Of a stretch of 64,000 nt of DNA, positions 13,601-52,700 are shown one piece after another. The stretch's first letter is position 1. Each line of letters starts with the position of its first letter. The stretch is from NCBI RefSeq assembly GCF_032854445.1, contig NC_088295.1, positions 59,377,249 through 59,441,248 of the forward strand. Direction: 5' to 3'. The notes beneath the pieces are model-generated. The model did no database searches. It saw nothing but the letters and a program-made list of their open reading frames with translations, and was not told the origin of the DNA. The translations under genes were made by a program, and so were the position numbers. The stretch comes from Liolophura sinensis (taxonomy: Eukaryota; Mollusca; Polyplacophora; Chitonida; Chitonidae).

Positions 13601-16600
13601 AGTTGTTGTCTACAAGCATTCTTTACCTGGGCTGTGTTAAGGTCTTCACCTGAAAGAGACGGTACAACATGCCATTCCACAAAACAATAAAAACAAACAT
13701 GAACTCTGTCAAAGGAAAAACATGAGAAAACAGCCCAAACCTCAAACCTGATCTGTGCTGGTTATGGTGAAGACAAATACCAGCTTTCAATTTAAAATGA
13801 TGAACAGTTTTGAAAAAAACGTTCAGAAAACTGTTTTGTGAGAGACTGAGAAACTTACAGATGAGATGTAAAACTAATGTCCTTCGTCCTTCCCTGGTGA
13901 CTGTAAGAACTAGTCAATTTATTTATCTTTTTGATTGGAGTATTACACTCAAGAATATTTCACTTATACAACAGCTGCTAACATTACAGTGGGAGGAAAC
14001 AGGGTATGGCTTGGGGGAAGCCCATGACCATCCGTAAGTTGCTGGTGGATCTTCTCACATGTGACGGGAGAGGAAACCAGCATGAGCTGGACCTGACCTG
14101 AACAGGTTTCTGGGTCATACTTAACAATCACATGACGATGAGGAGTCATAAGATGTGTCCACATACACTGTCTTCTTATGACAGGATGAGTCCATGTCAG
14201 TATGAAGTATCATGCTGAAGACACCAGACATGACACCTCACCAACTGACAACATACTGACACTGGGCCAACCAGTCCTGTTTCCTTCCTCTAATCTCTCA
14301 GTGCTAAGCACCAAGGAAGGCAGTAACAAGTATCATATTTGAAGTCTTTGGTGTGACCTGAGAGGGTATTTCCATTTCTATAAGAAACCAGAGAATGCAG
14401 ACCTCCACAGCTGTAACTACTTGTAGGACATTACTCACTTCCCTCCTCCAGCTGATCAGCAGAGGGCTTGGTTTCCGCTTCATCCGCCTCCAAGCATTCC
14501 ACAAATCCATGCAGCAACTCTTTACTTGTCATCTTAGAAGAAATGAAAACAATTATTTTACATTACATTATACTTCAGATTTTCTTTTTACATACATGTA
14601 CAACGTGTCAACGGGTCTAAAATAAGAGACATGCTCCAGAACAACCCTCTACCTTGATTGACCTCTTTTCAAAGTAAGGGTTATTGCATGTCCCAACTAT
14701 CAATCAAATTCATAAATTTATTTGATTGATGTTTTATGGCGTACTCAAGAATATTTCACTTGAACGGCGGCAGCCAGCATTACGGTGGGAGGAAACCAAG
14801 CAGAGGCTTGGGGAACTCATGACAATAACAAGAATATATAAAAAAGACCAAATGAAGCATACAGAGCAATTTATATTAAAACTCATAAGAAATTTGGGAA
14901 ACCAATAAACCTTTACACCAACATCTTACTTTTGGGAAGTTGGGTATCTGCCAGGGGCTCACGCAGTTGTTGACAGCAGATGTCTGAATGGAGAGGTATA
15001 GGGGAAGAAGGCTGCGTTTGCTGATAAATATGTCTTATAAATACCTGGAAGTTCTGAGCATTTGCAACAGGATAGAAATAACGAGTTTGTTATCCAGTCT
15101 TTGTTCTTCATATTAGTACAGTAAATGTGGAAGAGTTGAAACTTTAGAGTGAGGCACCGAAAATACTAGATAACAAGGGTTATGTGAATACCAACAGCTC
15201 ACTGATAAGATCTTCAGTTTACATCATAGCCTAAGTTGACCGGATAGATGACGTATTATAACAAAAAAGTTTATCCGGATACTGACGTCACTTCTCCCCA
15301 ATATCTAATAATTTATTCCTGAATTAACTTAGATGGCTTATCTGGCTATAGCATTGTTCTTCCCACAGCTGATATTAACCCGTCGTCAATGAAGTCACAA
15401 CTTCAACCAAGCTCTTGCTGGCTCAAGTTTGTGTAAGTCAGAAGATATGTCAAGTACCTGTGGTTTAGTTTTGAAATTTTAATTCATAAAGAAATAAAAA
15501 TTTGCCGTTTTCAATAGTCTTTCAGTTGATGGATACACAAAATATTAAAGCTGTGTTACTGTAACCTCACACATAAGCCAGCTTAGCCAAGATTATGGGA
15601 CACGTGTAGACTCTGACCTCATCTGCAGTGAATAGCCCCACAAGGTCTGACTGTATGACTGCCCAGCGACTGACCAGACGGAGGATCTTCACCGCAGCAA
15701 GGGCGTGTTCAGGCAGGAATGTACCAAATATGACATACCTGCAACAGCCAAGAAGAAACTGATCACACAGACATGCTGAATTAAATGTAATGTAACAACT
15801 TACTGAGTAAATAGTGCAGATACACATAAACTCAATTTACACACCAAAAATGTCATTCTTCTTGAATTATTTATCTATTTTTTTATATATTTGACTGGAG
15901 TTTCACCATGTGGTAAGATCCAACTTCTTGGGCACTGTGGTAAGATGTAACTTACTGGACAGTGTGGTAAGAACCAGCTTAATGGCTGGGCAGTGTGATA
16001 AAATGTACTAAAAACTTACATGGCACTCGATAAAATCCAACTTACCGGGCACTGTGGTAACATGTAACTTACTTAACAATGTGGTAAGATCCAATTTACC
16101 TGGTACTGTGGTAATATATTACTTACTTGACAATGTTCCAGCTTGGTTATGGGTAAGATCCGATTTACTGGGCAATGTGGTAAGATGTCACATGTATCCA
16201 ACAATGGGTAACAACAATGGGCAAAATGGTAATATCTAATGTGATCAGCAATGCAATAGAAACTGCCTCACTGTGCAATGTGGTAAGATGCAATTTGGCA
16301 ACATGATAAGATGCAACTTACTCGGCAACGTGGTAGGATCCAATTTACTCAGCAATGCAATAATATCGAACTTACTTGGCAAAGCAATAATTTTCAACTC
16401 ACTTGGCAATGTTGACCAGGTGGTCAGGTTTGCCACTGCGGGGGTTGATGGCCATGAGCAGTTTGTCCATGGAGGAAATAAACGTCGACGCACCGCTCTC
16501 CCGCTGTGTGTACATCATCACATTCTCCTTCTCCATTGTCACCTGAATCATCCTCAGACACAGCAGCGAGGCACGCTCAAGCTTCAGCTTTCCTACAAGA

Positions 16601-19600
16601 ACAAGTAAGAAACCAGCTCATGCTTCCCTACAATAAGTAAGAAACCAGCTTCAGCCTCCCTACAAGAACAAGTGAGAAACCAGTTCAGGCTTCAGCTTCC
16701 CTTCAAGAACAAGTAAGAAACCAGTTTAAGCTTCAGCTTCCCTACAAGAACAAGTAAGGAACCAGATCAGGCTTCAGCTTCCCTACAAGAACAAGTAAGA
16801 AACCAGTTCAGGCTTCAGCTTCCCTACAAGAACAAGCAAGAAACCAGTTCAGGCTTCCACTTTCCTACAAGAACAAGTAAGAAACCAGCTCAAGCTTCAG
16901 CTTCCCTACAAGAACAAGTAAGAAACCAGTTCAGGCTTCAGCTTCCCTACAAGAAGAAGTAAGAAACCAGCTTCAGCTTCCCTATAAATACATGTAAGAA
17001 ACCAGCTTCAGCTTCCCTACAAGAACAACCAAGAAACCAGCTTCAGCTTCCCTACAAGAACAAGTAAGAAGCCAGTTCCAGCTTCCTTACAGGAACAAAA
17101 AAAGAATCCAGCTTCAATATTGCCGATGTGGCGTTAAGCCATAATCATTCATTCATTCAGTTTCCGTACAAGAAGCCAGCTTCAGCTTCCTTACAAGAAC
17201 AAGAAACCAGCTCAGGCTTCAGCTTCCCTGCAGGAACAAGACACCAGCTCAAGCTTTAACTTCCCTACAAGCACAAATAAGAACCCAGCTCAAGCTTCAG
17301 TTTCCGTACAAGAACAAGTAAGAAACCAGCTTCAGCTTCAGCGTCCACACAAGAACAAGAAACCAGCTCGAGCTTCAGTTTCCGTACAAGAACAAGTAAG
17401 AAACCAACAAGTTTTAGCTCCCATACAAGAACAACAAACCAGCTCAAGTTTCAGCTTCAATACAAGAACAGGTAAAAAACCAGTTCAAGATTCAACTACT
17501 CTGAGAGAGCAAGTATGACATCACATCAATCTTCAGTTACCCTACAAGCGCAAGTAAGAAACCAGCTCAAGCGTCAGCTTCGATAGAATCACAAGTAAGA
17601 AACCAGCTCGAGCTTCAACTTTACCACAAACAAAAACATCAGATTATCACCATGTCTAATCGTTGACATCGAAGGAAACAAACTAGTCAAAACATTGTCC
17701 AGTTAACATACCTGGTATACTTGTGTAAGTTTCAAACTGTTTGATTGCTTCATCCAATATGTATAGCACCTGAAAACACACAGCATACAATGTGTTTATT
17801 TGACAAATGTTTTATGAAGTACTTAAAACAGAAATCCAGAAATATTATATTTCATTTAAAGCTTGGCATGTGCAAATGCCAAGGCACACAGAGGCATTAA
17901 ACCGATACTTTTGATGCCAACACTTCAGATTCAGTTTTTCGAGTCAAGGAAAATGTGACCCTTAAAAAATGCTACACTTAGGTAAAATATAGTACTCAAA
18001 AACAAAAAAACTGGATGATAGGCAGGCATTGGGAACTGAGTTCAAACAGGCTATTTTTTTTTACTTGAATGGTCTTTTATAGTGTACATTTATGTGTAAG
18101 TTCAAAGGATGTATAGGCTTACCATTTTCAGCAGTCCAGTTTCATTAAGCATGTGTAGCAGTAGGGTGTGTCCTGGAGGTTTGTAACCCACAGACTTGCC
18201 ACCAGGGGTCTCCACCTGCTGATCGAGGAAATCTTCTAGGCAGACTTCGTGTGACTCCATTAACTTACAGAGAATCTCCAGGGCACCAGCAGCCACACTC
18301 CACTGAAATAATTTGTTTTAATGGATGTTTGTTCAGTTCAAACAATGATTGAGTGAAAATCCAAATTACCAAGTTAGTATATCAACTACAACTATGTATG
18401 TACTTGCTTCAATGAACACAAAAGGCAGAATTCTGTTAATTCTTTAACTGTTGTTCTATGTCCAGCAACAGGATATTTCTCTTGTATGACTATGGTCAAG
18501 TTTATGGGTGGAGGAAACAAAAGAAAAAAATTGAATAAAACGACTGCACTTTGCAAGATAACACTAAACTCCTGACAAAAATCCACAACTAAAAGTGGTT
18601 GTGTTTATCATAGCCAAATTATCATAACAAAGGTAGAAAAACACCACTATCTTGACAAACTTGTGACAAACTTCTTTATTTAAAGGACTTTATCAACAGA
18701 GACTTCTTTATTAAAATCTACTCTTATTTCAAGAACTTATTAAGGCCTCAAAACCTATTACTTTCAAGGAATCCGATGAGAAGTGAAGCCGTGATCATTC
18801 AAACTTAATTATTGATAAAGATTTGATTAATAGGTAATTCTCTAATAAAATCTATCCATTTAAATAGCCTTAACTGTGTTACTTTCAAGAATTTCAAGGT
18901 CAAGTAAATCCACGATCACATTCCAATATTCTGAAACCATAAACTGGTATGACTTTCACACCTTTTCACTCGCATTTTTATAGGCCCTTGAAGCAAATTT
19001 CAGCAGGACATCATCTCTGATAAACAAAAGGTAAGGCTCAAATCCAGGTACTCTATAACCCGCGCCAAGAGCTGCCGGTATAGGGATCTCTGTTAGAACA
19101 TTGATGAATTCCAGGAAGGCTTGGGTTAGAGGGTAGGTCTCATTTCGGGATTCAATTTCAGCCAGCTCCACCTAGTGAGCAGAAGATGAAAAACAATTCT
19201 CATGCAAAAAATCTGGATTTGAATTCAATTTCAATTTTCACTTTCAACACCAGCGTGCTGAAACCCTAACAAGTAAGCCTCAGTGGAAATTTCAGATATT
19301 ATATTCCATAAAACAAATACTGATTAATTTATTTATTGATTTATTTATCTGATTGGAGTTTTAAGCAGTGCTCAAGAATAATTTATCTGATTCATGTTTT
19401 ACGCCATACTCAAGAATATTTCATTTATACGATGTTGGCCAGCACTATGGTGGGAAAAAACCTGGCAGAGCCCGAGGAAAACCCACGACCATCCACAAGT
19501 TGCTGGCATACCTTCCCAGGTATTGCCGGAGAGGAAGCCAGCATGAGCTGGACTTGAACTCACAGCAACCACATTGGTGGGAGGGCTGCTGGGTCACTGC

Positions 19601-22600
19601 ACTGTGCTGGTGTGCTAAAACCCTTGGCGACAAAAGCCCCCTACTCAAGAATAATTCATCTGACATTTCATGACAGCTGGTAGCATTATACAGGGAGGAA
19701 ACCAGGCAAAGCCCACAACCATTTGCAGGATGCTGGCAGGTCTTTCCACACATGAGGCCAGCATGACCTTGGGTCATTGAGCTGCACCATCACATTAATC
19801 ATTATACCACGGAGTCTCCAGAACAATGATTAAACCTCAGGAAACCATAGTAATAAAATCTGTTACAAAGATGTATAAAGTACCACAAACCTGTAAACCT
19901 CCAGGCTGGCTTCCTGGTTGAATTGTCCCCACAATCTACAACAAGAAACAATCAACATGACCAAACTTTACAACAAAATACAACTGGGCAGTAAAATGTA
20001 GCAGTATTCTGAACCGAGTCTGGTAAAATCAGTGACTTAGTCATGGCCTAATGTGAAGGTCAAATACAATTGCTACTACCTAATACATGAACACAGCAGC
20101 TGTTTACCTGAGAGACTTCCAGTGACTGCCAGAGATTGGCGGCGATATCCGGCGTACGCCCAAACGCAGCCAGCGTCAGAAGTAACTCGGCCTTGAGTTC
20201 TGGGGGTATACAACAGCCGACAAGCCCAAACAGTAGCACAACAGGCACCCACTGCTGGTTCTCACACAGGCCTAATCGAGCATTCTCACTCTGTCAAATA
20301 CAAAGTAACGACAGCTGGCATAAAACACTAGTTTTTAAATATATATATAATGTCAATGCATGTTAGTACGTACACAGGAACACCAAAAGCAAAAATATAA
20401 GACTATATAAAATATAGTCCTTAACTACATGTAAGCATATAATCTGTATTAAATTAAATTTCACACTTCAACTGCAAAACCCATTCCGTATGCATATTTT
20501 GTCCTGAAATTTTGAGTAAGGACACTAGAATGCATTTTCTTGATTGCCCAGAATCACACCAAAGAATTAAACTAACACAACTAACTTCTGCATTCCATAA
20601 CTTTCTCACAAAACTGTCAGATTCATACATAGAAAAAGAAAACTTTTGCCTATCAGTCATTTGCTTTTTGTTGAATACATTAACTTCATATCACCGGCAT
20701 TAACAAACTTGAAATAAACAACCTAACCGGACGAGCCAGCATTTGATGTTTACATGAATGTTTCCAGAGAGAAATAGTAAGTGGAAGGTCTGCCAGTAAC
20801 ATGCGGATGGTTGTGGGTTTCCCCCGGGTTCTGCCCGGTTTCCTCCCACCATAATTCTGGCCGACGTCATATAAGTGAAGTATTCTTGAGTACGGCGTAA
20901 ATCACCAATCAAATAAATAAATAATTAAATTAATAAGGACAATCGAGTTCATACTTTAAGGTAGAAAGAAGGTAAAAGATGTTCGACACTATCAAGTAAC
21001 CTGTCAGAAATGTTATGCGAATATTTATGACAACATTTACTATCATCACAGGCATCTGAAAAAGAGCCTGTGTTCACAGGATCCTTTTCTCAAGTCACAT
21101 GATCCAGCATAACATAAGAGTTCCATCTCAAAACTTCCCTACTGATGTCTTACTTTCAACCAATCACACTGCCCTAATTTTTAATCTTCCTGACTACTTT
21201 CACCTCTCTTGTTTATGTGCTTACGGACTCATGCAATGCCTGCTCTCATATTTTCCCCAACCTTGAACTGATTGTTCTTATAATGCTTGCTACATACATT
21301 TACTTTAGATCATAAACATTACCTTTATTTTAAATCGGCACTTCTGAGACTACTGTATTCTTAATGCCTTTAGCACAATTTATCATTTGCAAGACTGACA
21401 ATGCAGAACTGCAGGTCTATTACAAGAGTTATTCCTTTTAATATATTCAGTCAACTACTCACCTCCTCTGCCACTGTGCGAGTCAGCCTCAGGACAGACA
21501 GGAGCCCCTCTAGCTCCTGGGGGGTGATGCCCCGATGGTAGTGCCGGTATCTCTGGGCCGCACTGTCACTGGAGGTGGGCGTTTCCTTCCTCAGGTTAGT
21601 GTAGTACTGGTTCAGAGAGAAGAAGATGTGATCCCAAGACACCAGGCTAGCAGAACCTCCTGGAACCACAGGTGTTTATGATATGGATTAGATATAAAAT
21701 ACCGCATAAAACTGAAAGCAGTCAGAATACAGGTTTGATTAAGGCTCCATCAGCTGTTTCACAACGCCATTTCTGAGTCAAGTCAAAATTTAAAACTTCA
21801 CCATAATGCTCAATTTTTTGCCACATCTGCCTTAATCTAAAAAATAATGAGATCGTCAAACTTTTAATTTCTAGGACCCAAAAATAAGCTCTAAAATCAT
21901 ATTTCAAATTTTGACTTGTTAGACATGACTTTGTGGAACCAAGCACGCATTAAAAACTTTTAGAGCTAACTGGTCACTAAGCTGAGTCAATGTTACACAT
22001 ATTAAAGTTATATTTATAAATAATATTATCAAAAATATTCATATTTCAAGTGAAGTGAAAAAATATTTTGCTGCCAAAAAAGTAGTAATCTCGTCAATAT
22101 CACGTTCTTCAGGTCAAACACAAAGTCTTTAGAATTTTCATTAAATAGTTTGTCAAACTGTTAGTTTTGCGCACATTCGCAGAAAAAATGCATGAAATAT
22201 AAAAACAGGTACCTAAGCGCATAATTTACAAGTTACAAGCAAAACAAATCCCAGCCCAGCAAGTTCCCTTACCTTGACTAGTTCCATTGAGTTTCAGCAG
22301 GTGGAAGAGATGGTAGGCACATTGTTGACCGTGTGCCAGGCCTGTCAACATGTGGATGTAGGGGATATAGAGGTATGGGGGCAGCAAGTCTCCAGCTATC
22401 CTCACAAACTTGTACAGGCTCACCTAACACAATGACAATATAGGGGATATAGAGGTATGGGGGCAGCAAGTCTCCAGCTATCCTCACAAATGTCTACAAG
22501 CTCACCTAACACAATGACAATACAGGGGATATAACGGTATAGGGGCAGGCACTTTCCAGCTATCCTCACAAACTTGTACAGGCTCACCTAACACAATGAC

Positions 22601-25600
22601 AATATAGGGGATATAGAGGTATGGGGGCAGCAAGTCTCCAGCTACCTTGACAAATGTGTACAGGGTCACCTAACACAATGACAATATAGGGGATATAGAG
22701 GTGTGGGGGCAGCAAGTCTCCAGCTATCCTCACAAACTTGTACAGGCTCACCTAACAATGACAATATGGGGGATATAGAGGTATGGGGCAGCAAGTCTCC
22801 AGCTAACCTCACAAACTTGTACAGGCTCACCTAACAATGACAATATAGGGGATATAGATGTGTGGGGGCAGCAAGTCTCCAGCTAACCTCACAAACTTGT
22901 ACAGGCTCACCTAACAATGACAATATAGGGGATACAGAGGTGTGGGGGCAGCAAGTCTCCAGCTAACCTCACAAACTTGTACAGGCTCACCTAATACAAT
23001 GACAATATAGGGGATATAACGGTATGGGGACAGCAATCTCCAGCTATCCTCACAAACTTGTACAGGCTCACCTAACACAATGACAATATAGGGGATATAG
23101 AGGTGTGGGGGCAGCAAGTCTCCAGCTAACCTCACAAACTTGTACAGGCTCACCTAACACAATGACAACAAAAATGCCACACCATTTATAAATATTCCAA
23201 GAAAGAAAAATAGGTACAACACAAATGACTTCACTCCAGATGTTATGACCACACTAAAAAAAAAACCCAAATAAACCATTAAGGATGACAGTCATTTAAT
23301 GATTTATAACATTGTTCTTGAATGTCATATTTTACATCTTACATCTTACAAGTCTGCATCTATAATATACAACCTTGACTATGGAAAGCACCTACATCTA
23401 TGCCTTACCATGATTGTCCACTTATTACCAAGACATATCGGATTTATTTATTTATTTGATTGGTCTTTCATGCTGTACTCAAGAATGAAATATTTAATAA
23501 CTGCTCACCACTTGTATTTTTATCACAAAAAATTAACCATGGTTAAGAAAGAAGTACATGTAGTTGTATATCTGAAAAAAAATCACACAGAATCAGTGCT
23601 AAATATTGTGTGTTCTTAGAATGAAAAACTTGACGTCAGCAGACCTAGGTCACTGACCTGTTTCTGAGGTGGTCTGTGTCCTATGGCTGTTGTCATGTTC
23701 CCAAACATGGTAGAGGCTCCAAAAGGTTCTGGGGGGCACCAGTAATCAGTCACTAGTTCCAGCCCCATGGGATCCTTAGAGTACAAGTCACTTATCTGAA
23801 ACACAATCATACATTTGTTTTCTCCCCAAATGTGCTGATGTTCCACACTAGAAAAGATATATATCAGATGAATTTTTTGTACTTACCAATTAAGTAGTGT
23901 TATGTAGACAGCCCTGTACATGATGAGTCAAAAAGCTCAAAACACAACAACATACATGACATCAGTGGCCCTTCCTTGCAAGGCTTGTTAGCTTTGAGGT
24001 TTAAAGTTGCTTTCAGCATTATTGTGATCACATATTAACACAAAGTGTTTCCTTGAATCATATTATCATGTTTTAAAGTGTTTGCCTCTATTTACTTAGT
24101 TATTAGTTATTATTCAAACATATGCCTGACATCAGTTAAAACACCCCTTTGGAAACAATAGTGAAACCTGTGTTGTCAACATTCCATATTTAACTGAACC
24201 GCGGTTTCCTGGATCACCCCATGTGTGTTATCAGGCACCTATTTGAAGGCTTTTGGTCAAATTATTGTGCCAAATGCCTGTGAGGATATTGTTTATCTAT
24301 TTATTTGATTGGTGTCTTACGTCGCACTCAAGAATATTTCACTTATACGACGGTTGCAAGGATCATCGTGGGAGGAAACTGGCCTGGAAACCCACGAGCA
24401 TCCGCAGTAAAATCTTCCCACCTCTGACCAGAGAGGAAGCCGGCATGAGCCTGATGCACTCACATTGTCTGCATCAGTGAGTTCCTAAGTTATCGAGCTG
24501 GCACACTAACCACTTTGCCCCGCAGGCATTAGGTTTCAGATACACGTGTAAAAGCAGAAGTGCTATTTATTTTACCAGCTCTAGGAGATGCTCAAAGTCC
24601 CTCCTCAGATTTGCAGAAGGTTCCACACCCTCTAACTGATGAGCCTGGAGCAGGCGGGCTGTCTCATCGCCACGGTTACGCAGTTCCTTCCACTTGAGAA
24701 AAAATGGAAACCCGAACAACATGAGAACAGAAAGTAATGCAGCTACGTCTATGCTTAACCCATGACTGCATGTTACTTCAGTTCTTATCTACTTATTATC
24801 AAAATATAGTTAATAATTACCAACCACTTTGCATGTATATTTATTAAAAATCTACAACTAAACTGTCGAGAGTGAAGCACATTTAGTCACATTTCCACAA
24901 AAATCTACACAGAAAGGGTGCTGACGGATTTCTTTTTTCTTATAATGGAAAACTGTTTCATACATGTAGGGACAAAGGGAGGTAACTTGAACTTTCAGCA
25001 GACCTGGTTGAAACCTGTGCTCTACAAATGCCCAGTTCTAGTTCCAAAAACTTCATATTTTTCCTACCATGAAATTGGCAGATTGACCATGATAATGTCC
25101 GTTTAGATTGTTATAATTTATAACATAAGAAACTTTACTTTTGATGTTGAGAGAAAACCTCAACCTGGGTAATCATTTTTTTCCCCTAACCTTTAATGGC
25201 ATGTGGAAAATAAAATCTGTGATCAATCCATGTACTCGTCTCAGATAAAACTCCTACAGAAAAAAAAGAAAGAACAAAAATTAACATGCATGTATCACTA
25301 ATAAACAAATGATCTTAAGCCACTCAAACTAACCTACGTTCATAACACACAGCTTGTTGGTCAGTTCTTGTTAGCTGTAATTCTGTGTTACTAGCAGCAC
25401 TTTAAATTACATGTAACCATTAAAGAAAAAACAGCCATAATATTAGTGCAGAATTAACTTCTTGAATATGCACAATTACAACTTAAAACAAAAGCTGGTG
25501 TCACAGGTTCAAATAGCCAGTGATCTGATTACAACTTATTTAAAAGTACGGAGGTCAGGAGTGTTGGGTACATAGCAAATAGTGATGGTTTACTTTGGTT

Positions 25601-28600
25601 TCTTTCACACATAAAGCTGACTACCGTTACACACCTGGGAAGTTCTTTATTGAAGCATAATAATACTCCAATCAACCACATAAACTGTGAACAAACTCGC
25701 CTCTTTATGGAAGTCTGGAAAAGCCACGACACACTCCTTGAGGAAGAGAAAAGTGTTGTCAGCCAGAGCTACATCCATGATAGCTTCATCCTCTTCACAG
25801 AATTCTCCCACACACACTGAAATTGGAATTATTGATTTGTTTGAATACCGTCTTCCAACATGACAAGAACAAACCTCTGCCATCTTCTGGAAATCAAGGC
25901 ACCTTACCAAATACCTGAAAACCTCTTCCTACATAAAGCTGAAGTGTCACCAGCCAGAATGGGGATTAACACCAGACCTTGTGGCCTTCACTGCAAAATT
26001 TTACAACACCACCAAAATGTGATGAACAGACTTTTTGTTGACAACCTACAAATGCAGCACCAAATTCACACTGCTTGTCGGTAAAAACATTCAGATACAC
26101 ATAAAACACGAAATTCAGGCTGCCGCTATAAGTGGGAAGGTCTGGCACAACCTGCAGATGGTCGTGAGTTTCCTTCAGGCTCTGCCCGGTTTCCTCCCCC
26201 ATAATGCTGGCCGCTATCGCATAAGTGAAATATTCTTGAGTACGGCGTAAAATACAAATCAAATTAATATAAATTCAGGCAGTGACCCACACTCCCTCTA
26301 ACCTTTTCAACCCTATTGAAAAAGGTAAATAAAAGAAAAAGACTGATGAAATAATTTCCGCAGAAAATTACATGTTGGGGAATTCCCTTTCAGATGTAAT
26401 TTTCTCGACATGTACCTCCTCATTGCTGTTGCACATTCTTATTTAAAAAAAAAAAAGACCCTTAGCTTGCTACCCAATTTCTGAACCTGTATTTGCCCCT
26501 GTATACAGTTGTATCATGAATGTGCACTATCTGAGATCTAATCTCTTCAACACGCACACACAAGCCAATGCCCCACCTGTTAAGCCCTGATATTGTGAGA
26601 GCTGCCTTAAGGCCAATGACCAGGCAAACTGTACAGTGGCCTTGAGACCTGGGCAGGCCCAGCTCTGGGAAGACTTCATCTCTCTGTGGATCTCAGGCAG
26701 GTAATCATTGTCGCTGATGATCGGCAGGGCTTGGATTAAATCTGTCAAAGAGTAACAGTCACACTTGTATACTAATAAAAGCATATGAATGATACTAAAG
26801 TTAACTAAAACCCTCTGACTAACAGAGAGTCTCATGAATTATGTTTTAAGAAAATTATTGACGAACTTTTCTTGAGTTTCTAAACAAACAATGCCCAAAC
26901 TTGTATTTTTTTATACTTTTTCTTAAGTTTCAAACCAAACAATGGCAGTAAACAAAATTTTTACAAAATAAAATTGATGTACTTTAAGATATACATGAAA
27001 AATGCTACCATACTAAGTAAAACATGACAAGATATGTTTGGAAAAGGCCATTATCACCAGTTGCATAAGAGGCCTTTTTTCTTCCCTTTAGACATATGGG
27101 AACTGCTTCCAGCAAGTGTTGCATTCCAAATATTTCATGGATGCTCACAAAAAATTCCTAACCAAAAAGAGGTACGAATCCTGTCAGAACAGTCCTATAC
27201 TCTATGTAAATGTTTCAAGGTTGAAGATGGGTAAGTAATACCTCCAGCATCCTCTTGGTCCAGTATACTGATATCAAGACAGTACAACATGGTCATTAGC
27301 AGACACACAGACACTGGTTCCAAAGTACCATCAGCACTGACGGAGTTATCTGTCTTGAGGAAGGCCATCAGCCTTAAGGTGTCGCCTCTTGACAGAGGTT
27401 GCTGGCAGGCCAGACAGTACAAACACTCTGCCAGAGAGCACTTGATCTCTTTGAACAAATCTGTCACCTGATGGCAAAAAAACACAGCAAAATGTAGTAA
27501 CAAGCAGCATGCATTACACATTTAAAAGCAGATTTGGTAGCACCTTGATTGTAGCCTAACAGAAACATGAATGCAAAACTTCAGCTTAATACATGAAGAA
27601 AATCTACCTCAATATGGACACAAATACGCCAACAATTTGTAATTTACCAGAACTAAATATGCACACCAAGCTTCAACAATGGAACATATTCTCATGTCGT
27701 TATGCTGTACAAGTCATCAAAACTCAAGCTGAATAATTGCAGTACTTTTTGAGACACCATCCTTAACATTCACCTTACCACTGATTCTAATACACAAGAG
27801 ACTTCAGTTTGTGAATTTTTGGTAATTTACAGTTATTAATATGCACACAGGGCATCAACAAAGAACATTCCTTTTGTATTATTATGCTTCACATGTATGC
27901 AAAATCTGAGCTCAAAACATGCAGTACTTTCTAAGACACAACCCTTACTACAGTCAACCTGACATTGCTTCCATGGTGTTAGGGTACCCATGTCGATGCT
28001 CCGATCGGACTTTAGCTGGGCCTATACAAACTATACATGAGATAAAAACATGCACCCCACAGCAACTTTATCATCACCAACCAGAACACCATTCTCCAAG
28101 ACAGATGCTTGTCACAACTAAAACCAGTGTATACACTAAGAAATTCAAACAGAATTTGGGATATTTGACGGAGGTGCAAGATTTGAATTTTATTAAATAC
28201 CTTTAATGAAGCAGAACAAGACTACAAGTACAGTCTGCAGATTAAGCCTGAACTTCAGTTTCCCACTTGCACACCACATGATACAAAATGGACACCATTT
28301 TCAAACAAAATGACCTTGAAAAGGGGCTGTTTGGACAGCCTCACACATTTCTGGTTCATCTCGTAATCTACAATGTACCTGTTTTCTGTGTTTCGGTGGT
28401 CCCAGGGCCCTGTCTTTCTGTAGTTTGTCCAGTTCTTGAGCCAGGTCCATGTTTGTTATTAAATCTGTTCAGGACAATATTGACATCATGTATATAAAGG
28501 AATGCATAATGTAATGTACAGTCCCTATCCTCAAATAACCTCTAATGGACTTGTACAGTCTCTATTCCCAAATAACCTCTAATGGGCTTACTTTGATTTG

Positions 28601-31509: not shown

Positions 31510-31542
31510 TGTTGTTTTATGTGTGGTGGATAGCTAAGTCAA

Positions 31543-38475: not shown

Positions 38476-38477
38476 TG

Positions 38478-39505: not shown

Positions 39506-39541
39506 GGGTGGTGGTGGTGGGGTTGGGGGAGGTGGGGGGGG
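39506..39541. other. G-rich tract with quadruplex potential
   Basis: Several runs of three or more G (GGTGGTGGTGGGG, GGGGGAGGTGGGGGGGG) lie within 36 bp on the plus strand, in the ALDH16A1 3' flank. Confidence 0.6.
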
Positions 39542-40758
39542 TACATGGAAAAGTATGTATTTATACAGAATACATAAAAGTAACAATACCACTACACTTG
39601 TAGTCAAAATATGATCAAGGAATAAAACGAAAGTCATTCAAGTAAAACATTATTTTGTGGCAGGAATATATGTACAACATACATGTATATATACCTGCTC
39701 TGAACTGGTAAAAAACTGATTCCTTTTCAATATAAAAGCCACACCTTTCTGGGTTTTTTATATTATGTTTAGCCACAGAATTCCGCTACCTGTAAGACAC
39801 AATATACTATAACTTGATTATATATGTACTATAATGACCTGGAATAAAGGTGTACATCACTTTTTATTCTTTTTACCTCAGATCAAATGATGTAGAATCC
39901 ATTTTGTAAATTACTGACAAAACATTTAAAACGGATTTAATACTGATGATTCAAAAACAAACACTTATGCAAAAACAATTCAATAAACTCGTCACAAGTA
40001 AAATTACTACTTTTTCAAAAAAAAAAAAACAAAGAGAAAACGAGACCAGTCCATCCCTGAAATTTTTCTTGGTGTGTACAGACAATTAGTATAACTGTAA
40101 CAAGGCACTTTGTTGAGAATATGCATATTTTCACAGTTTTAAGTGTTATTTTGTGAGGTAAGTGCACTTTTTCCTTCGTTACCTGCATTAGCAGTTATGA
40201 TAGAAATCTAAGACATGCAGGTAGGGAACACCTGACAAAAGCCCTGACCAATAAGCAAAATGTTAAATAAGAAACCTACATGTACATAACTAGCTATACT
40301 GTGCATGTCAACTTATCTGAGCACTCTCCCTAACCTTACTTGCTAAGCATACATAGTCCAGAATACAAGTATTCAGATGTGAAAGTAGGAATTTGAATAT
40401 AATTTGTACATTTCAGAAAATCTGGCAGCCCTCTGATTTAATATCTGACCATTAAATAATGTTTCAAATTCTGGGTTATGGTATTTTATGTCAAATATGG
40501 CTTTGTGACACTGTGTTGTCCTTGTACTTTTTTCAAAAGTTTTGGTTTAAAATTGGTTTTTGCATTATTTCAGTCACATCCCAGTGCGCCTCACTGCAAA
40601 GCCCTATTAAAACAATACTTCTGTTCAATGTGTTTGATTCTGGCAGTAAATTGTTGAGAAATTCTACTTGTAAAACAATCAATCATGTAGCAGAGCACCA
40701 TCACTGTCAATGGACACAAAAAAAATGAAAATAAAAAATTCAGCCTTGAATAATGTGT

Positions 40759-43700
40759 TCAGTTGGCAAAAATGTCCCCCATCGGGATCCAGATATTTTT
40801 GACCTGTGTGGAATGATAGAGAAACTCCTCCCCTTGACCTTGCTCACTGTCTGACCAATCGCGAGACAGACCATAGTTAACCCAAGTCCGTTTAACATTC
40901 TCTGCGGACGTGTACTCCACAAAGTGTGACCCCTCAGCTGACCCAAAGTACCACATGGCCTGCACGTCCTGGTGTTCCGTCAGGTATTTGGTTAGGTGAT
41001 CTCGGTCCCCTGTGATGATGTTGACTACACCTCCTGGAACATCTGACGTGTCAAAGACCTACAACACAGGAAAAAAAAAGTCACAAAGGAAATCCAAGTT
41101 TCATTGTGGACAAACTCAGAAAGACCTGATTTTGCATTTACACGGACTCTGTCAGTGGAAAGAAATGAAGGACATATTTTAAGGGCAAAGATCTCCATAA
41201 ACAGTGCATGGTATTGTACAGTTCCTACGCTCCACTTCGTGAAAACTGAACAGTGCTACATGGTATTGCACAGTTCCTATGCTTAAACTGAACAGTGCTG
41301 CACAGTTCCTTCTATGTGTTTTGTGAAATATGCACAGCACTGTACAGTTCCTACTCTGTACTTTGTGGAAAATGCAGTGTGAAGTGCGGGGTACTGTAAG
41401 TTTCTACTATGTACTTTGTGGAAAATGCAGTGTGAAGTTCACAGTACTGTACAGTTTCTACTTGCAGAAAAATAATTCTGCCTAACTGTTGGATCTAGGC
41501 AGAAACCAGAGTGACATAAAAGTGTAGCGATATACTGTATGTAGTGTCTAACTTGATTTCATGAAGACGGATACAGAATAGTTCCTACACAGTACTGTTA
41601 TGACTGTATTGCAGTTGAATGCATGTAGAACTGTTTGGTTGAATGTGGCTGCTGTGCTGGTTTAAAGGTAGAAATCAACACTGTACTGTTCAGCATTGTG
41701 TAGAAGCTGCCCAACAATGGACAATAAATGCTTCACTGTGTACTATGCACACAAGAACACTAATATCATCTGATTACCTGATAGAAATCGAGGGCTGACA
41801 GAGGGTGCTTCTCGCTAGGTACGATCACCACGCAGTTGCCCCGGATTACAGCAGGTGCAAACAGGGACACGAAGCCCAATAAGGGGAAGTCATCAGGGCA
41901 GGCAATTCCAATCACACCCACGGGCTCATGGATCTTCACAGTGGCCCCATATAAAGTGGTTTCCTGGGAAAAATTAGATACCTCAACATATACATGGAAA
42001 TTAAACATATGAAGACTTAAGTTGACCAAGTCTTTAAGTCAGTTATTAATCCAACATTTTTAAAATTTATGTTCAAATTCATTTAATTGGAGGGTTTCAA
42101 GAGAACTGCAGAGAAAGGGATACTAATTTTGGTTTGTCATGCTTTACTCTTTTTGTGCAATAATTGCTCCGAATATAGTCCACTTTTCATATCATTTTGT
42201 GTTCAGGTTCATTTTATTTAACCTTATATCAAGTTCAAAAACCAGATGAATCTCTCCATACGTTTTTGTATTTATTTATTTATTTGATTGGTGTTTTACG
42301 CCGTACTCAAGAATATTTCACTTATAAGACAGCGGCCAGCATTATAGTGGGAGGAAACCGGGCTGAGCCTGGGGGAAACCCACAACCATCTGCAGGTTGC
42401 TGCAGACTTTCCACTTACGGTGGGCGAGGAAGCCAGCATGAGCTGGATTTGAAATCACAGCGACATAAGCTTCGGTATATTTAACGATTTCCTTGAATTT
42501 GATTGGACATTGGTTTTTGTGGAAGAATAGCTACAATTATTGTCTATTTAAGTATAACTTTAGTAAGCAGATTCAAATCGTCACCCCTAAGATAAAGTCT
42601 GAAAAACACTTTGATCCATGCATAAATCTTGCATATTTAGAATGGGACACAAATTTTTTTCTTCTACATTTTGGGTAACACATACTCTGACAAGAAGTCC
42701 AATATTGGATGACACAACAGTATGAGCTGGAACTTCACATATATTTATAAGAAATCTTAAAATGTAAATCTTCAACATTTTCAACCTCTAAAGCACTTTT
42801 CCCAGTGGAATTTAAGCATACATTTATTATGAAAATGAAAGAAAAAATGATTTGTTTGAGTCACTAAAGACACAAGCTTTGTAAAACTGTGCAAATTATT
42901 TCTCAACATCCCACAGTTCTCTCAGAAGAGCTGTGTTTCAAAATATCGCCTGCAGAGGAAAAGGTTGAAGAATTAGGGTAAGTACAAAGGTCAAATTTGT
43001 CAAAATGGAGATGAAATGTTGTTTAAGGTCTTGGAGGGAAGTCAGATAAACATAAGCAAACTGCTATATATGTACATGCATACAAAGGAAGCAGCTAGAA
43101 GTGACAGCGTCAATGTTAACAGATATACCTGCACAGATCCTCCATATTTGTCGCAGTACGCTCCCCAGTAAAACAGCCTCTGAATGGCCAGGTCTACCTC
43201 CTTCAAACCTTCCGCCTTTTCCTTTCCCGTCATTTCCGAGAGACGTGTCCCAAATTCGTCACGACGGGCTTCCAGGTTCTCAGCCAGGTAATAAACAATC
43301 TGAGCTCGGTTGTGAGCTGCCCGTTTACCCCAGCTGTGGGAAAAAGGGGGAAATTAAACCCTGATAGCAACATGATACTTAACACCTTGCCAACCAGCAT
43401 ATTGTTTTACCCCATCTCTTTTTATATACTGAGTCCCACAAGATGATAATCAGTAATTAATTAATAATTAGTATTTTTTTTAGCTGTCCAGTCTTAGGAT
43501 TAAACCCAGACCTCCTGTCAACAAAACAAACATCAAAAATCAGCCTTACGCATATAAACGAGATGGCACAACCCAGATTTCTTCACTGTGGGACGGCCGA
43601 TACAAAACGTTGGTTACAAGATCCAACATTATGCCATCATAATCTTATGGTAATGTGACTTTATCTCTTTACTGCCCTTTAAGGTGAATAGGTGAACATG

Positions 43701-46700
43701 GGTGGGTATGTACAATAACTTATACTTTTATTACCTAAAACACAGTATTTAGTTCAGTCAATATTTAACGCAACTTAGTAAATTAAAGTCATCTTTAACT
43801 GGTCTTTGATTTTCAACTTTGTATATACCCATCCAACTAAAAATATGCTGATTAGCCCGTGAATGCCTTAAAATTATGACATCATACACAAGAGGAAGCC
43901 ATCTTAATAACCTGACTTTCAAATTTCAAGTTCCCATATTCAGGAAATTTCACGTATTTTATACCAATCTTTGTGAAACTGAAACTTAATATGGATTCAA
44001 GACTAGTTTCATATCAAAAAACTTCCACTTCAAATCTGCATAAAATACAATTACACTCAACAAAAATATAAACACATGAAGCAATTTTATATTGTTTTCT
44101 CTCAGTATTAAAAAAAGTGTTAACAATTTGGTTAAGTATTCATGATCAATTGTAGCTTCAATTTTCACCAGATTTTCACAAGCTAGGGGTATAACCCAGG
44201 AGCTATGGCAGCTTGAAAACACAGGGGTCAGTGATCACTGAGTGCTGTGAACTCACCACTCTGTTGTCATGCTGCCATCTGTTAAATTAACATGTTATTT
44301 AATACTGTGAGAAAACAATATAAAACTGCCTAAAAAATAGGTATATATTTTTGTTGAGTATAGAAATGACCTACAGTGTAAACATTGGTCGTTACAAAAA
44401 TCAGAGGTATAAATTGACACATGCTTTTGTTTGTCCCATGTATGACCCATTTCGAGCCTGAATACTAGCAGGCTGGAATCTGCAATCTGGCTTATTCTCG
44501 CTTGTGATTCTTTTCAAGACGATACACATACATCTGTAAACAACAGATCATGGTTGCAATTTCATCTACATGAGAATGCCCTTGTGGTTCTAAAATTTAA
44601 TCCGAACTCAAAAACATTCTGCTTTCAAACCGATGTCTTGGCGGATAACTCAGCCTCAAGGTCACACCAATTTCACTGGACCTGCAACTTTAAAACTTAA
44701 AAATCATTTAATTCATGGAAAATGTAGACTATCTGTATAGGTTGAAGACATATTTACATGATCGGAAAACCTTGACAAACAGGAAAATCACATAAAATAT
44801 CCAGATCAGACAAAATAAAAATGTGGATTTTCACATTTGTTTTTATTCTGTTTTTGATGCTTTAGTGTCCACTAAATATAAATTATAACTGTTTCCACCT
44901 AATTCTTAGCGTGGCCTCTCACCTGATCATTTATGCATTAGGAAAGAATGTCCATGCTTACCCTGGGGCAGCTTTGTGGGCCACTTCCACAGCATTCCTT
45001 ACATCCTTCCTGTTACCCTCTCCAACGTGGGCCAGCACTTTCCCCTTTGGGCTGGTGATTGCTCGGGCATACTGGGCATCAGGACGCTTCTGCGCGCCTC
45101 CGTAGTAAAACTTGTATGTTCTGTCAACACTGTCAAAGAAAAGAAAACAAAAAGTGTTATAAACTCAAAGCTTTGCAGTGTTTTCTTTTTTTCCCCCATT
45201 TAGAAAACAATCTCAAAAGCATCTCAAGTTCAGATGCAACTAAAAGTTTTTTAATCCTGACATTTATAGGTTGAGATACTGTTCCAGTCTGTCAACTGGC
45301 TGGCCTTAAAATAGATTATTTTCTTCTAGATTTTTGTTGATACAAAATGAAAAAAAAAAAAAAAAAGAAAAGAAAAAACCCTGGATGGCCTCAAAACAAC
45401 AGCTTCTATTTTCAGATTTTTGCTTTGATATGAAAAAAAACACAAAAAAAAAACACATGGCTCACCTGGGTGCCTTCACTCCATCAATCATCCTGTCGGC
45501 ATCTTTGCTCTCTCCCAAACTGGGGCGAGCTGGTAAGGTAGACCCAAACGTTTTCAGGTTGACGTCCCCTACTTTAGGCCTGGGACGTTCCTCCCAGCTA
45601 GGCCGAACATACTCAAACAAACCCTACCCAGGACAAAATACTGACATTATGTTTTCTGATATAGGAAGTACAAGTATATATCTGAAGAAAAAAAGTGTGG
45701 CACATTTACATCTGCTAATTTAATGTTAAAAAAATTGATTTTACAACATCACTGGTAACTGGATATATATACCCTAAATGACTTAAAATTTTGCCAATAA
45801 AAGTAAATATTTAGTACCAAATAAATGTCACAAACTATTTTTTTTTTTTGGACCTGAAATTTACAATTTTCCAGCACAATATCATCCCATGTTCCAAAAA
45901 AAGTTCCTGTCATTTAGGGTATATGAAGTTATAACAGAGCAGCTATATACATCAGTTGATTATATTAAATGCTACATGTCACATAAAACTTATACTGTTT
46001 TTGGACTAGAAGACATACTCTAGAATCATACCAATGAGATAAATGCATCTCGGCTTAAACACAAACATTTGCCATTTGACTCTATGCACAAAGTTTTGAT
46101 TTATTTATTTATTTGATTGATGTTTTACGCCATATTAAGGTATATTTCACTTAAACCACTGCGGACAGCAATATGGTGAGATGAAAGTAGGCAGGAAACC
46201 CACAACCATTCGCAGATTGTTCTCAGACCTTCCCATATTCGGCCGAAGAGGAAGCCAGCATGTGCTGAACTCACAGTGGCTGCATTGGTGAAGGCTCCTG
46301 GGTCATTGCATCACGCTATCCACCTCCGCCACTGAGGGCCACACAGCCCCCTTCCCCACCCCCACCCCCGCCCATTCCCATCCCTCCCATGTCAGTTGTG
46401 CACTCTAGAATTGACGTCTAGAAGATGCCTTTCAATGTACTGAAAAATATTGGAAAATTAATATTGAAATATTTTTCAATATTAACATAAACCTTGCGAG
46501 GCTGTTTCATTTTACTTTTCACATCATCATTTTTCAATCCTTTCAAAAACTGTAAAAAAAAAAAGGTTTAACGATAGCACAATATTATATATGAGTAATT
46601 AAATATGCATCATAAATTTGAAGTGCGATGAAGGAGTCACCTCTTTTCCGCCATCTCTACCATAACCGCTCTGTCTGTACCCGCCAAACCCGCTTGCTGC

Positions 46701-49700
46701 GTCAAACAGATTGTGAGAGTTGATCCAGATCGTGCCAGCCTTGACACTGATGGCCACCTCCATGGCTAAGCTGATGTTCTCTGTCCAAACGCTACCAGCC
46801 AGTCCGTACATTGAATTATTGGCTATGCTAATTGCCTCTTTAGCTGTGCGAAATGGCAGGACAACAAGTACTGGTCCGAATATCTAAATAAAAATAATAT
46901 ACATGTATGATACAATTGATTATAAGTTGAAAAATAAAATGCAGTCAAATTTAGTACAATTTTTCACGCGAGAGAACCTTCCAAATGCCTTAATTTCTAA
47001 AACTATACACACTTAACTTGCTAGTGCACTGTCAGTTTGTGATGTTGTCATATCTAATTTGTATATGTAAAAACCCTTCACTGCGATTTCTGGCTCCTCA
47101 GCAATTAGGGCTCGCCAGGACTCCCATAAACCAAAATTACGGGAATCTGCTTGGATTTCCTGAGAATGTCACAAAAATAATTTTCCAAATGACCAATTGT
47201 TCTCATATTTCCAGTTCATAACTATGTCTTCTCTGGACATGTGGACGCATGACCATAAACATTGCCAATGCACATTTTGTTCAATTTTTATTACCTGTTA
47301 TTTTGAATGGGCATTGTTGGTCACCATGATGACTTTCAAACCAGGTGAGGAACAGAGATCAAAATAAATTGTGAAAAGGTCAAGATTTTGAAATGAGGCC
47401 CCCAGCTGTTTGTTTTATTCTCCATTGCAATCAAATTCTTATAGATTTATCATAAACTAACTGACAAATAATGAAATACAGTGATATTTAAATCACCCAG
47501 AATCCCCCAAACTGTTCAGTTTTATATACCATGTATTAAAACTTTTAACTGGAGAAATTGCAAACTTTGATGCACTAGATTTGACCTACATTCTGGTGGA
47601 TTTCCCCAAAGCTAACCTACCGGAATCACTTTGATTCTGGTAAAGAATTATGAAAATAACGGCCTGACAATACACTGTACACCCACCAAAGAGTGCAGTC
47701 AGTCGGATGAACGATCAGTTGTGAAGAAAATCAAAGGACGGACGGACGGACACACAGGCAGGCAGAAAGACAAACAGATGCTTTCCTCTATAGAAGGGAA
47801 AGGTGTTACAGTGTTAAACCAAAATGCCAAGTGATTTTCTGGCGTAATGGTAGGGCGTCCGCCTCAAAGTCGGGAGACCCTGGATCAAACCTGGTCAGGT
47901 CATACGGAAGATTTTAAAAATGGTACATGTTGCTGCATTGCTTGGCGCTCAGCACTGAGAGGTTAGGGCAAGGAAACAGGATTGGTTAAAAATTGTTAAA
48001 TATGACACTAAACCCCAAGCATACACACATACATATTAAAATGTCAAGTTTACAATTTTTACATCACAGAACAGTTCTATTGCACAAATAGGAGTTAAGC
48101 CATAATCACATGGTTCGTACACTTCAAAGAGTTCAATATTTTCAACTTTTTCAGGCCAAAAAAATTCACATTTTACAGGGTACTTATAATGTATATATAT
48201 TGTAAAGTTATACATGCTTGAAGGAATGTCAAATGACTGTAATTCACAGAATGTCTGCACATACATACTATACACACTAGCTCATCTTGATTCCGTAGTC
48301 TCAATTTCAAAACTTTTCCTGGTTTAACAAAAACAAAACCCTGATTTTCCAGGCATTTCAATTCGGTTTGGAAAAGTATAAATTTCAGGTTTTTCAAGTT
48401 TTTCAAGGCCCTGTACAAACCATGCAATGAATCTTTCATTTTTTTTCTGTTGCTAGATATACATTGTATAGGTACTCTGTTTGTGAGATTACCTCTTCTA
48501 CCACCACCCTGGACACGGTCTGCACCCTGGAGATGATTGTTGGGGGATAATAACAACCTTTACCCACGGGGATACACGCAGTAGCTTGGTAAACCTGCAA
48601 CCAAACCAGTCTGGATCAAGTTGGTGTTTTAAGAGTTATGACAAACCTGAAGTATCTCGATCCCCTCCACACAAAGTTGACAAACATCATGGCATCCGAT
48701 AAACAAGAAATTTTGTCCACACAAAACCACACACATTGACATCGTGTCAACACAACTACGTGACTTCCCATGTGCCTGACAAACATCATGCACGTCTATT
48801 ACCTGTACACATCAGTTAAATAAAGTCAAAAAATGTGAACAGATTTCAACCAATAAAAACTGCACAAATTCTCCGCTGTTAATTAAACTTTAGCGAGTTT
48901 GAACTGCAACTTTTACACACCTTTTACAGAAATAATGACACATTTAATACAGAGAAGAACAAAAGAGTACACCACTTGGACACATTCTCTTCCAGGCACA
49001 CGATGTTAGAAATAGCAAAGATATTTCTGTGTGACATAAAGGCTTTCACAAATGGAGAAAATAGAATTTTCAAGGTCTCGATCGAGTAAGAAAATTACAT
49101 ACAGTACAAAGCCACTGACTGACTTCAGATAATTAGAAAGAATGGTACGTAATTTAGCACATAATTTGCACACCTCGGCCCCGTCTGACTTTGCATGACT
49201 GACGTACTCCTCGATGGAGCTCCTCTGTGATTGATCCACGATGGCACCCATGTCCATAGTCTTATCCAAACTGTTTCCCACACGAAAATGAGTCAGCCTC
49301 TCTTTGAGTTTATCCAGTAGTTTGTCGTAAATAGGTTCTTGGACTAGAAGTTTTGATCCAGCACTGCAAACCTAAAAATTGTTTGATAACAATTATTGAA
49401 GAGCCCATTACGATTTGGGTACAATCTTTACGAGAGTCAAGAAGGTTATCTTACTGCCTGTTTTCTTCTGTTGATGTTGTTGTTTATAAAACAAAATCAT
49501 GAAAATCAGAAAAAAAAAAACAAAAAAAAAAAAACAGAAAAAAAACCCCGTTTTAATTTCTTTTTCTTTTTTGTCTGCTTGCAGCAGCTTTTAACGAAAA
49601 ATTTTCATATTTACTTCAATACAACTATACTGCTACACTCTGAAAACTCAATTTTTATTCCATTCAGGCAAAAGTAGTTTAGACAAATGTAACATTTGTG

Positions 49701-52700
49701 AGTGGTCAGTTTGATCAAGGCTCAGCTTTCACATAACACTGATCTGATTTAGCAAACTAAATGTTATTTGTATGGCCCACTGCCTCGATGACCCTGGTTG
49801 AAGCTGATTACATTCACCACCTCCACCTCAACCTCCCTCCCCCCCACCTCCCCAATGCCGACCTGACCCTCGTTGAAGCTGATTGCATTCACCCCCTCCA
49901 CCCCCCCCCCCCCCCCCCACACCCCCTCCTCAATGCTGACCTGACCCTGGTTGAAGCAGATCGCATTCACCGCCTCCAAACCCCCACCCCCCTTCATCAA
50001 TGCCTACCTGACCCTGGTTGAAGCTGATTGCATTCACCACCTCCCCCCCACCTCCTCAATGCCTACCTGACCCTCGTTGAAGCTGATTGCATTTACCACC
50101 TCCACCTCCCCCCCACCTCCTCAATGCCCACCTGACCCTCGTTGAAGCTGATTGCATTCACCACCTCCACTTCCTCCCCTTTCCTCAATGCCTACCTGAC
50201 CCTCGTTGAAGCTGATTGCATTCACCACCTCCACCTCCCCCCACCAATGCCTACCTGACCCTCGTTGAAGCTGATTGCATTCACCACTTCCACCTCCTCC
50301 CTTTTCCTCAATGCCTACCTGACCCTTGTTGAAGCTGATTGCATTACCACCTTCAAACTCTCCCCTTTCCTTAATGCCTGCCTGACCCTGGTTGAAGCTG
50401 ATTGCATTCACCACCTCCACCTCCACCTACCTCCCCCTCCTCAATGCCTACCTGACCCTCGTTGAAGCTGATTGCATTACCACCTCCACCCAACACACCA
50501 TCCCCTCAATGCCTACCTGACCCTCGTTGATGCTGACTGCATTCACCTCCACCCCACCCGCTCAATCCTTACCTGACCTTGGTTAAACCAGATCGCATCC
50601 ACCACCCCCTCCACGGTACTGTCCAAATCAGCTGACTCAAAAACTATGACTGGAGATTTGCCCCCCAACTCCAGGGATAACTTCTTCCCACTCCCTGCTG
50701 TGGCCTGTCTGAGGAGCTTCCCTACCTGCAGCAAACGGGTAACAGTTAGATTATATCTTTTATACCAGAGCTCGGACTAATATAATTATTATATATCAGT
50801 TGCAGACCAGAAGGAGCAGTACAATGGCCATTTAGTTAATAGATTTGTTGAGTGATCTACTGCAATAATCAAATAACATTTTTCTTTTTCACTTTCATAA
50901 ATTAACTAAGAATATATTTGTCTGAATGTTTGCATTTTTTACCTCCCTTTACCTGGTACCTCACAAATCTTACTCCAAACATTCATGCTCATTGGTCAGG
51001 GAATAAAGAAAGCATTAGACCATTCAACCAGCAAAGGCCCAACAATAAAACATAATGACTAACATTAATGGAATCTTCCAGGAAAATACAGGTGGCTCGA
51101 ACTGCTTGGTGTCTTTTTGGAAACCTTTCGTTTCCAACCAATTCCAATATATCAAACCATTTTACTTTGCTATTTCAATATAAAGAAACAACACATCAAG
51201 CTGGGTCCAGAGAAATGTCTGCTGAATAATTTGTTTAAAATTCTCAAAATTATTTGAAATTTCACATGTTAGTGAGTATGGGGTGTTTTACATGATATCA
51301 AAGACTGTCTTAGCTATATAACTGTCTTAGCTATACCACTACCTTAGCTATATCGCTGTCTTAGCTATATTGCTGTCTTAGCTATATTGCTGTCTTAGCT
51401 ATATCCCTGCCTCAGCCATATCGCTGTCTCAGCCGTATCGCTGTCTCAGCCATATCGCTGTCTCAGCCATATCGCTGCCTCAGCCGTATCGCTGCCTCAG
51501 CCGTATCGCTGCCTCAGCCGTATCGCTGTTTCAGCCATATCGCTGCCTCAGCCATATCGCTGCCTCAGCCGTATCGCTGTTTCAGCCATATTGCTACCTC
51601 AGCCGTATCGCTGCCTCAGCCGTATCGCTGCCTCAGCCATATCGCTGCCTCAGCCGTATCGCTGCCTGAGCTATATCGCTGCCTCCACTATATCGCTGTC
51701 TCAGCCGTATCGCTGCCTCAGCCATATCGCTGCCTCAGCCGTATCGCTGCCTCAGCCGTATCGCTGTGTCAGCCATATGGCTGCCTCAGCCATATCGCTG
51801 CCTCAGCTATATCGCTGCCTTAGCTATATCACTGTCTCAGCTATATCACTGTCTTAACTACATCGCTGTCTCAGCTATATCGCTGTCTTAGCTATATCGC
51901 TGTCTCAGCTATATCTCTGTCTTAGCTATATCACTGTCTCAGCTATATCCCTGCCTTAGCTATATCACTGTCTCAGCTGTATCACTGTCTCAGCTGTATC
52001 ACTGTCTCAGCTATATCACTGTCTCAGCTATATCACTGTCTCAGCTATATTACTGTCTCAGCTGTATCACTGTCTTAGCTGTGTTAGTCCAATTTGCTGT
52101 CGACTTAACCAACAGAGTTTGCTTTGAACTAGTGAGCCTTGTAAACATGTCAGAAATCACAAAATACGCATATCTTACTCTTCAGGGTCAAATGGCCTCA
52201 AATCATTTTCTTTTGTCAAATGTTGGTTCTAAACTATTATAGAGAGAACACCATACTGAATTTCCGAAATACTCTTCTCGAGATAGTTATTTCAGTATTG
52301 GAAATTCAATATACATATATATACCCTTGTATTCCCTGATAATAATGGCACAGCAGGCTATGTACTATAATATGCAAGGTATTTCAACAAAAGTTTGGTA
52401 CACATATGTAAAAACTGCACTTTGAGAAGAACAGAAAGGTCTCTAAATGATTCTTTATATGCCAATACCTAAGGTTTTCCGATAGGAAAGTGATCAAACT
52501 TCAAAAAATCTTAAATGGGCCTATAAGATGGAGGCGTCAATCAGCATCAAGCAAAATTTGTCACTTTAAAAATGCTAAACTTACGATGACATATCGTATA
52601 TTGTTCTCTTACCTCTGTTGACCCAGTAAAAGCTACCTTGTCCACGTCAGGATGTGTGGCCAAGCTACTACCAAATTTCCCATTGCCAGTGACAACGTTG

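Follow-up and report, generated by a model that had tools for sequence, protein, structure and literature searches.

Minisatellites that carry splice sites are already in print for single human genes. According to its title, a 1995 paper in Nucleic Acids Research (23:1854) deals with a minisatellite providing multiple splice donor sites; the gene is reportedly human IFI6/G1P3 (6-16). In human CBS, a 31-bp variable number of tandem repeats (VNTR), c.1444_1467+7(16_21), is located at exon 13–intron 13 and is present in 16–21 copies (PMC2630376, PMC1395315); in the excerpts of these papers its unit spans the donor site, and its name reads as 24 exon and 7 intron bases. Tandem genomic duplication (AGGT model) is presented, in the excerpted parts of two further papers, as a route to new introns (PMC3443670, PMC2891723). 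Here, we analyzed a window of 64,000 nucleotides from the chiton Liolophura sinensis (NC_088295.1, positions 59,377,249 to 59,441,248; "the window" is this whole stretch), in which four minisatellite arrays cross the splice junctions of NUP205 and aldehyde dehydrogenase (ALDH) exons.

The unit of these arrays spans a splice site, as in the CBS excerpts, and tandem duplication yields copies of splice-site sequence, as in those on the AGGT model. However, the CBS VNTR as excerpted is one locus on the donor side, and the IFI6/G1P3 minisatellite reportedly belongs to a single gene, whereas the present arrays affect both sides of exons in several gene families, with units of 25 to ~156 bp. Likewise, the excerpts on the AGGT model place the new intron inside an exon, whereas here an existing intron grows by copies of the exon edge. 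Taken together, the arrays are a real, frequent, exon-derived feature of this genome, of a known kind, and occur at a scale for which there is no report among the matches listed in the openly licensed literature. A preliminary description of the window had stated that no named description of this pattern as a genome-wide habit was known; among these matches this stands for the genome-wide scale, but CBS and the title of the 1995 paper had already put single human genes in print.

Junction-crossing arrays in the window

The array-bearing exons and their arrays, the latter from Tandem Repeats Finder (TRF), are as follows (a slash marks the splice junction):

16403..16592, minus strand: NUP205 coding exon with arrays on both sides; in-frame peptide KLKLERASLL...HLVNIAK between tag/GAAAGC and TGCCAA/gtgagt
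15908..16409, minus strand: donor-side array, 27-bp unit, old and degenerate (TRF 69–78% matches); covers the last 7 bases of exon 16403–16592
16577..17621, minus strand: acceptor-side array, 41-bp unit, ~24 copies in two blocks (TRF 13.2 and 11.3 copies); overlaps the first 16 bases of exon 16403–16592
22273..22423, minus strand: NUP205 coding exon (VSLYKFVRIAGDLLPPYLYIPYIHML...); splice sites tgtgttag/GTGAGC and GTCAAG/gtaagg
22359..23168, minus strand: acceptor-side array, 82-bp unit, 10 copies (TRF 91%); covers the first 65 bases of exon 22273–22423
50573..50725, minus strand: ALDH coding exon with splice sites (PF00171, E 4.1e-15, profile 216–268)
49789..50606, minus strand: donor-side array, ~62–65-bp unit (TRF); covers the last 34 bases of exon 50573–50725

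All four arrays start in a coding exon, pass the splice site and extend into the intron only, and, by reading of the sequence, the body of each of these exons past the array end is single copy. The claim of the preliminary description that four junction-crossing arrays lie at three exons of two genes was thus borne out with splice-defined exons. The identity of NUP205 comes from a phmmer search with the joined exons (E 2.8e-200), and the start of exon 22273–22423 can be aligned at each residue with NUP205 of PDB entry 5ijn (human). For ALDH, the Pfam match runs to profile position 268, where the following exon begins. In two of the three exons (22.4 kb and ALDH) conserved coding sequence therefore reaches right up to the edge; as this conservation includes the part covered by the array, these arrays derived from the exon and not the reverse.

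The 45 TRF rows in the window were merged by hand into 16 minisatellite arrays, after exclusion of short-period and A-rich rows (units ≤18 bp, except a 17-bp array), and 45 exons were placed, one further peptide having no match; some exons are surely missing from this map. None of the other 12 arrays showed clear exon similarity: no score lay more than 3 above that of the best shuffled exon, and four exceeded it by 1–3 (three shuffles per exon). This agrees with the earlier view that the remaining minisatellites show no exon-edge origin. Since the window had been picked for its striking look, evidence on how general the pattern is must come from outside it.

Exon origin and recurrence in the genome

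The wider sample consists of 51 further stretches of this genome, 278,800 bases in total, which were picked for their conserved exons. These were located with Pfam profiles, those for TCP1, myosin head and adaptin giving a first sample and dynein AAA_6 a second. In the first, 155 of 203 profile matches lay in fetched regions and were used, two rows of L001 that are array copies being omitted deliberately; in the second, 99 of 100 were used. For L001, the TCP1 search had already shown one exon end three times in tandem, 109 bp apart, before the region was chosen; all other regions were selected without sight of their repeats. Exon ends in these stretches come from a simple splice-site score and may be off by some bases, with weak scores for 57/155 and 48/99 donors and for 20 and 25 acceptors (first and second sample, respectively). 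One L004 exon, where the profile match ran through an array, was set by eye. The edge-array sequences of the first sample were read individually, and the ends were read for all 19 edge arrays, window included.

Arrays spanning an exon edge, according to TRF and the splice-defined exons, were found at 15 of the 254 exons (~1 in 17, ~6%), that is, at 11/155 exons in the first sample and 4/99 in the second, the smallest exon overlap being 6 bp (L043). The unit holds exon end, splice site and intron sequence in these 15 arrays as it does in the four of the window. Thirteen of the 19 are donor-side and six acceptor-side, so both sides are affected, as proposed from the window, and the design recurs across the genome in unrelated families (NUP205, ALDH, TCP1, myosin, adaptin and dynein). 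Arrays near an edge that do not span it were left uncounted (L006, L017 acceptor side, L019, L020, L028, two in L040, L041 and L045), as were doubtful ones on the donor sides of L017 and L021 and at L004. The minisatellite load inside genes of the sampled regions is high: strong arrays (defined below) occupy 14.3% of bases in the first sample, 9.7% in the second and 10.2% in the window. At L004 7074–8895, a short TCP1 exon is flanked by two arrays, like the NUP205 exon of the window; a 41-bp acceptor-side array overlaps it by 1 bp, and a 27-bp donor-side array begins 12 bp past the donor.

The exon origin was also assessed independently of TRF: the terminal 22 bases of each exon were aligned with the sequence flanking that exon and with other such sequences of similar length (score ≥16). 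Among 412 edges, 12 had an exon-end copy in the exon's own intron, compared with 0.07 per set in other introns; in the exon-interior control (bases 38–60 from the edge), 3/412 had a copy. Ten of the 12 edges are at edge arrays, one belongs to a duplicated whole exon (L009 302–400) and one to a lone copy (L040 5794–6065). The exon origin of the edge arrays is therefore clearly far beyond chance, and a comparison against exon controls of the kind that the preliminary description had proposed for the whole genome gives, on this sample, a positive answer as to exon origin.

In the lone case, the start of exon 5794–6065 of L040 was copied once (17/18 bases) at 5583–5600, 210 bp upstream and without an array; it is perhaps a remnant or a chance match. 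L009 holds three similar myosin-head exon copies in a row within one gene (302–400, ~790–883 and 1395–1487), the one near 790–883 having been missed by the profile; these are perhaps mutually exclusive exons. In addition, a non-edge array, L011 5338–5705, resembles a non-adjacent exon (score 18, against 11 for the best shuffled exon).

If ~6% of exons carry copies of their own edges, this genome offers a natural experiment on how the spliceosome chooses among near-identical sites dozens of bases apart. The arrays would also represent a simple route for intron lengthening and splice-site multiplication, the isolated human examples would then mark one extreme of a general process, and the claim can be counted directly in any annotated genome.

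Proposed origin of the arrays

We consider it probable (about 0.7) that these minisatellites arise from near-random tandem duplications across exon–intron junctions that are filtered by selection, so that the copies at the edges survive. Slippage or microhomology-mediated repair would duplicate a segment of ~25–160 bp holding one exon end, its splice site and the adjoining intron, as ~two-copy stages and short sequence shared at some junctions suggest. Such a change should be nearly neutral, since it would always leave one exon complete and its splice site functional; within an exon, a duplication of this kind would damage the protein and be lost. The intron copies could then multiply and diverge, whereas coding constraint would preserve the exon copy. 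The arrays span a range of stages consistent with this course: ~two copies at 90–97% match (L022 and L036 donor side), tens of copies (18 and 38 in L010, 43 in L011) and the degenerate 27-bp array of the window. Within gene sequence, seeds would fall almost at random, slightly favoring G+C-rich stretches; the data suggest, but do not establish, an additional ~two-fold preference for exon edges.

The filter is supported by the arrays that are missing. Outside the window, 5.7 of the 51 strong arrays would be expected within an exon, and not one was seen there (P 0.0022). This deficit supports the purging half of the model given in the preliminary description, in the form of selection against duplications within exons; for arrays of whole exons, on which that description had placed the selection, the chance expectation is only 0.23. 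Anchoring of the duplications in the exon edge is not supported: between 6 and 93 bp of the array are exonic, and therefore there is no fixed anchor.

Seeding at exon edges and the alternative explanations

Since each array represents one seed, however many copies it holds, the comparison was made between seeds: for every array, a unit of the same length was put at random positions in the sampled sequence, from which extra copies had been removed and exon interiors excluded; "strong" arrays have a unit ≥20 bp and a score ≥150, a filter added after seeing the data, whereas the criterion for all arrays was fixed before the second sample. The weighted version used G+C weights derived from the same data, in which non-edge arrays are G+C-richer than array-free intron (median 0.41 vs. 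mean 0.37, P 2e-4). The results outside the window were as follows:

Strong arrays, both samples: 15/51 span an exon edge, 6.3 expected (P 0.0006); G+C-weighted 8.2 (P 0.008)
Strong arrays, first sample: 11/42, 3.7 expected (P 0.0006); G+C-weighted 4.7 (P 0.005)
Strong arrays, second sample: 4/9, 2.6 expected (P 0.25); G+C-weighted 3.5 (P 0.50); no significant excess
All arrays, pre-set criterion, both samples: 15/80, 7.17 expected (P 0.0028); 13/80 with ≥10 exon bases demanded, 6.28 expected (P 0.006)
All arrays, pre-set criterion, first sample: 11/68, 4.33 expected (P 0.003)
All arrays, pre-set criterion, second sample: 4/12, 2.84 expected (P 0.30); no significant excess

A ~two-fold excess (1.8–2.4) at and near exon edges is therefore likely but not proven. 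The enrichment at edges that the preliminary description had named as its support appears in the pooled data; it is modest, and the second sample by itself is not significant. Within the window alone, chance does not explain the similarity of the arrays to the exons, but it might explain their number, as the excess is weak. The random-seed model gives 0.94 of 16 expected against the four seen (P for at least four 0.0105; for at least three, which counts exons and not arrays, 0.06); leaving out exon interiors raises the expectation to 1.22 (P 0.027). When the window exon map was rotated, four or more such arrays were obtained in 26% of positions (P 0.26), a test that we judged too weak as evidence because long arrays often contain exons after rotation.

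Several of these results weigh against near-random seeding with selection as the full account. Should the pooled strong-array excess, flat or G+C-weighted, be borne out by a larger sample, random seeding would not be a full explanation; and the density of array ends (strong arrays) peaks in the last 25 exon bases (0.67/kb with the window, 0.63 without). Short shared junction sequence, which slippage or microhomology repair would leave, was noted on reading by hand in four selected cases only (TGAGAAACA in L018, TGTT in L004, GAGA in L022 and TTCC in L009), and the 82-bp window array shows no clear microhomology. Moreover, when copies are compared with each other, GT is more conserved than the rest of the unit in 7 of 10 donor arrays, with one tie and two lower, which leaves some room for function.

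The edge results bear on two opposite explanations. In one, splice junctions are tandem-duplication hot spots beyond the effect of G+C, owing to a chromatin step, to RNA–DNA hybrids during splicing or to the splice-site sequence itself. The pooled and first-sample excesses and the maximum of end density within the −25..0 bp interval at the edge speak for it, but the second sample under the pre-set criterion does not, and only 4/99 exons there carried edge arrays, compared with a forecast of ~7/97. In addition, array ends 0–50 bp outside the exon (0.27–0.34/kb, window included) are nearly as dense as those 25–50 bp inside it (0.40/kb), falling to 0.14–0.26/kb more than 50 bp into the intron, and no breakpoint is fixed relative to the splice site. 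We regard this mechanism as doubtful. Only slightly less doubtful is the broader proposition that junctions are real hot spots in this genome, where splice sites continually seed intron-lengthening minisatellites and leave thousands of spare intact sites beside conserved exons; if true, this would keep a constant reserve of sites available to alternative splicing and intron sliding. At the other extreme, a special case of near-random seeding, there is no edge excess at all, and edge arrays are just the share that random seeding gives. The window rotation and the second sample speak for this, but the pooled P values argue against it, whether flat, G+C-weighted or for all arrays, and the exon origin as such greatly exceeds what chance would give; we find it as doubtful as the hot-spot mechanism.

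The other two explanations concern the copies and the introns. Extra splice sites might be kept by selection as spare or alternative sites that help or tune splicing. They have not been purged: in the 15 of 19 arrays in which ≥4 copies were found, GT is intact in 81/88 copies of 10 donor arrays (ALDH, 10/11) and AG in 90/105 copies of five acceptor arrays (9/9 intron copies of the 82-bp window array). Identity to the true site is higher at GT than elsewhere in 10/10 donor arrays (Wilcoxon P 0.002; acceptors, P 0.56), but we rejected this measure as evidence of conservation, since it is biased by a true site that cannot change. Between copies, AG is higher than the rest in three acceptor arrays and lower in two, and GT conservation per position (0.98, 0.93) is within or just above the range of its neighbors (0.80–0.97), so that there is at most a slight donor tilt, too little to claim selection. 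The 41-bp array has lost AG in 9/24 copies, keeping it in 15/24, and in 15 of the 19 arrays the assigned unit length is not divisible by three and breaks the frame; the copies therefore do not represent in-frame protein growth. A selected function thus seems improbable. Still less credible is the idea that the arrays made the introns, by tandem duplication of exonic AGGT segments. Several units do have AG/GT at the junction (82-bp unit, tag/GTGAGC; ALDH, ggtcag/gtaggc), and the mechanism is documented in the excerpts of PMC3443670. However, the window arrays occupy one end of their introns with unique sequence beyond, and the units take their exon part from just one side of the intron. In one of the 19 cases, moreover, the acceptor intron of L036 shares codon and phase with that of its dynein paralogue L035, which has no array; therefore this intron is older than its array and is not a new intron bounded by a duplicated exonic segment. 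The same comparison gave no clear match for the other three dynein array introns.

Two minor observations concern the window. In 22424–23168, most copies of the 82-bp unit read tag/GTGAGC, an acceptor followed directly by donor-like sequence, so that a copy resembles a recursive splice point. Finally, similar degenerate reading frames (...GKPTTI) recur on both strands at 19324–19557, 20686–20924, 24247–24480, 25966–26274, 42179–42484 and elsewhere, which suggests a dispersed repeat family.

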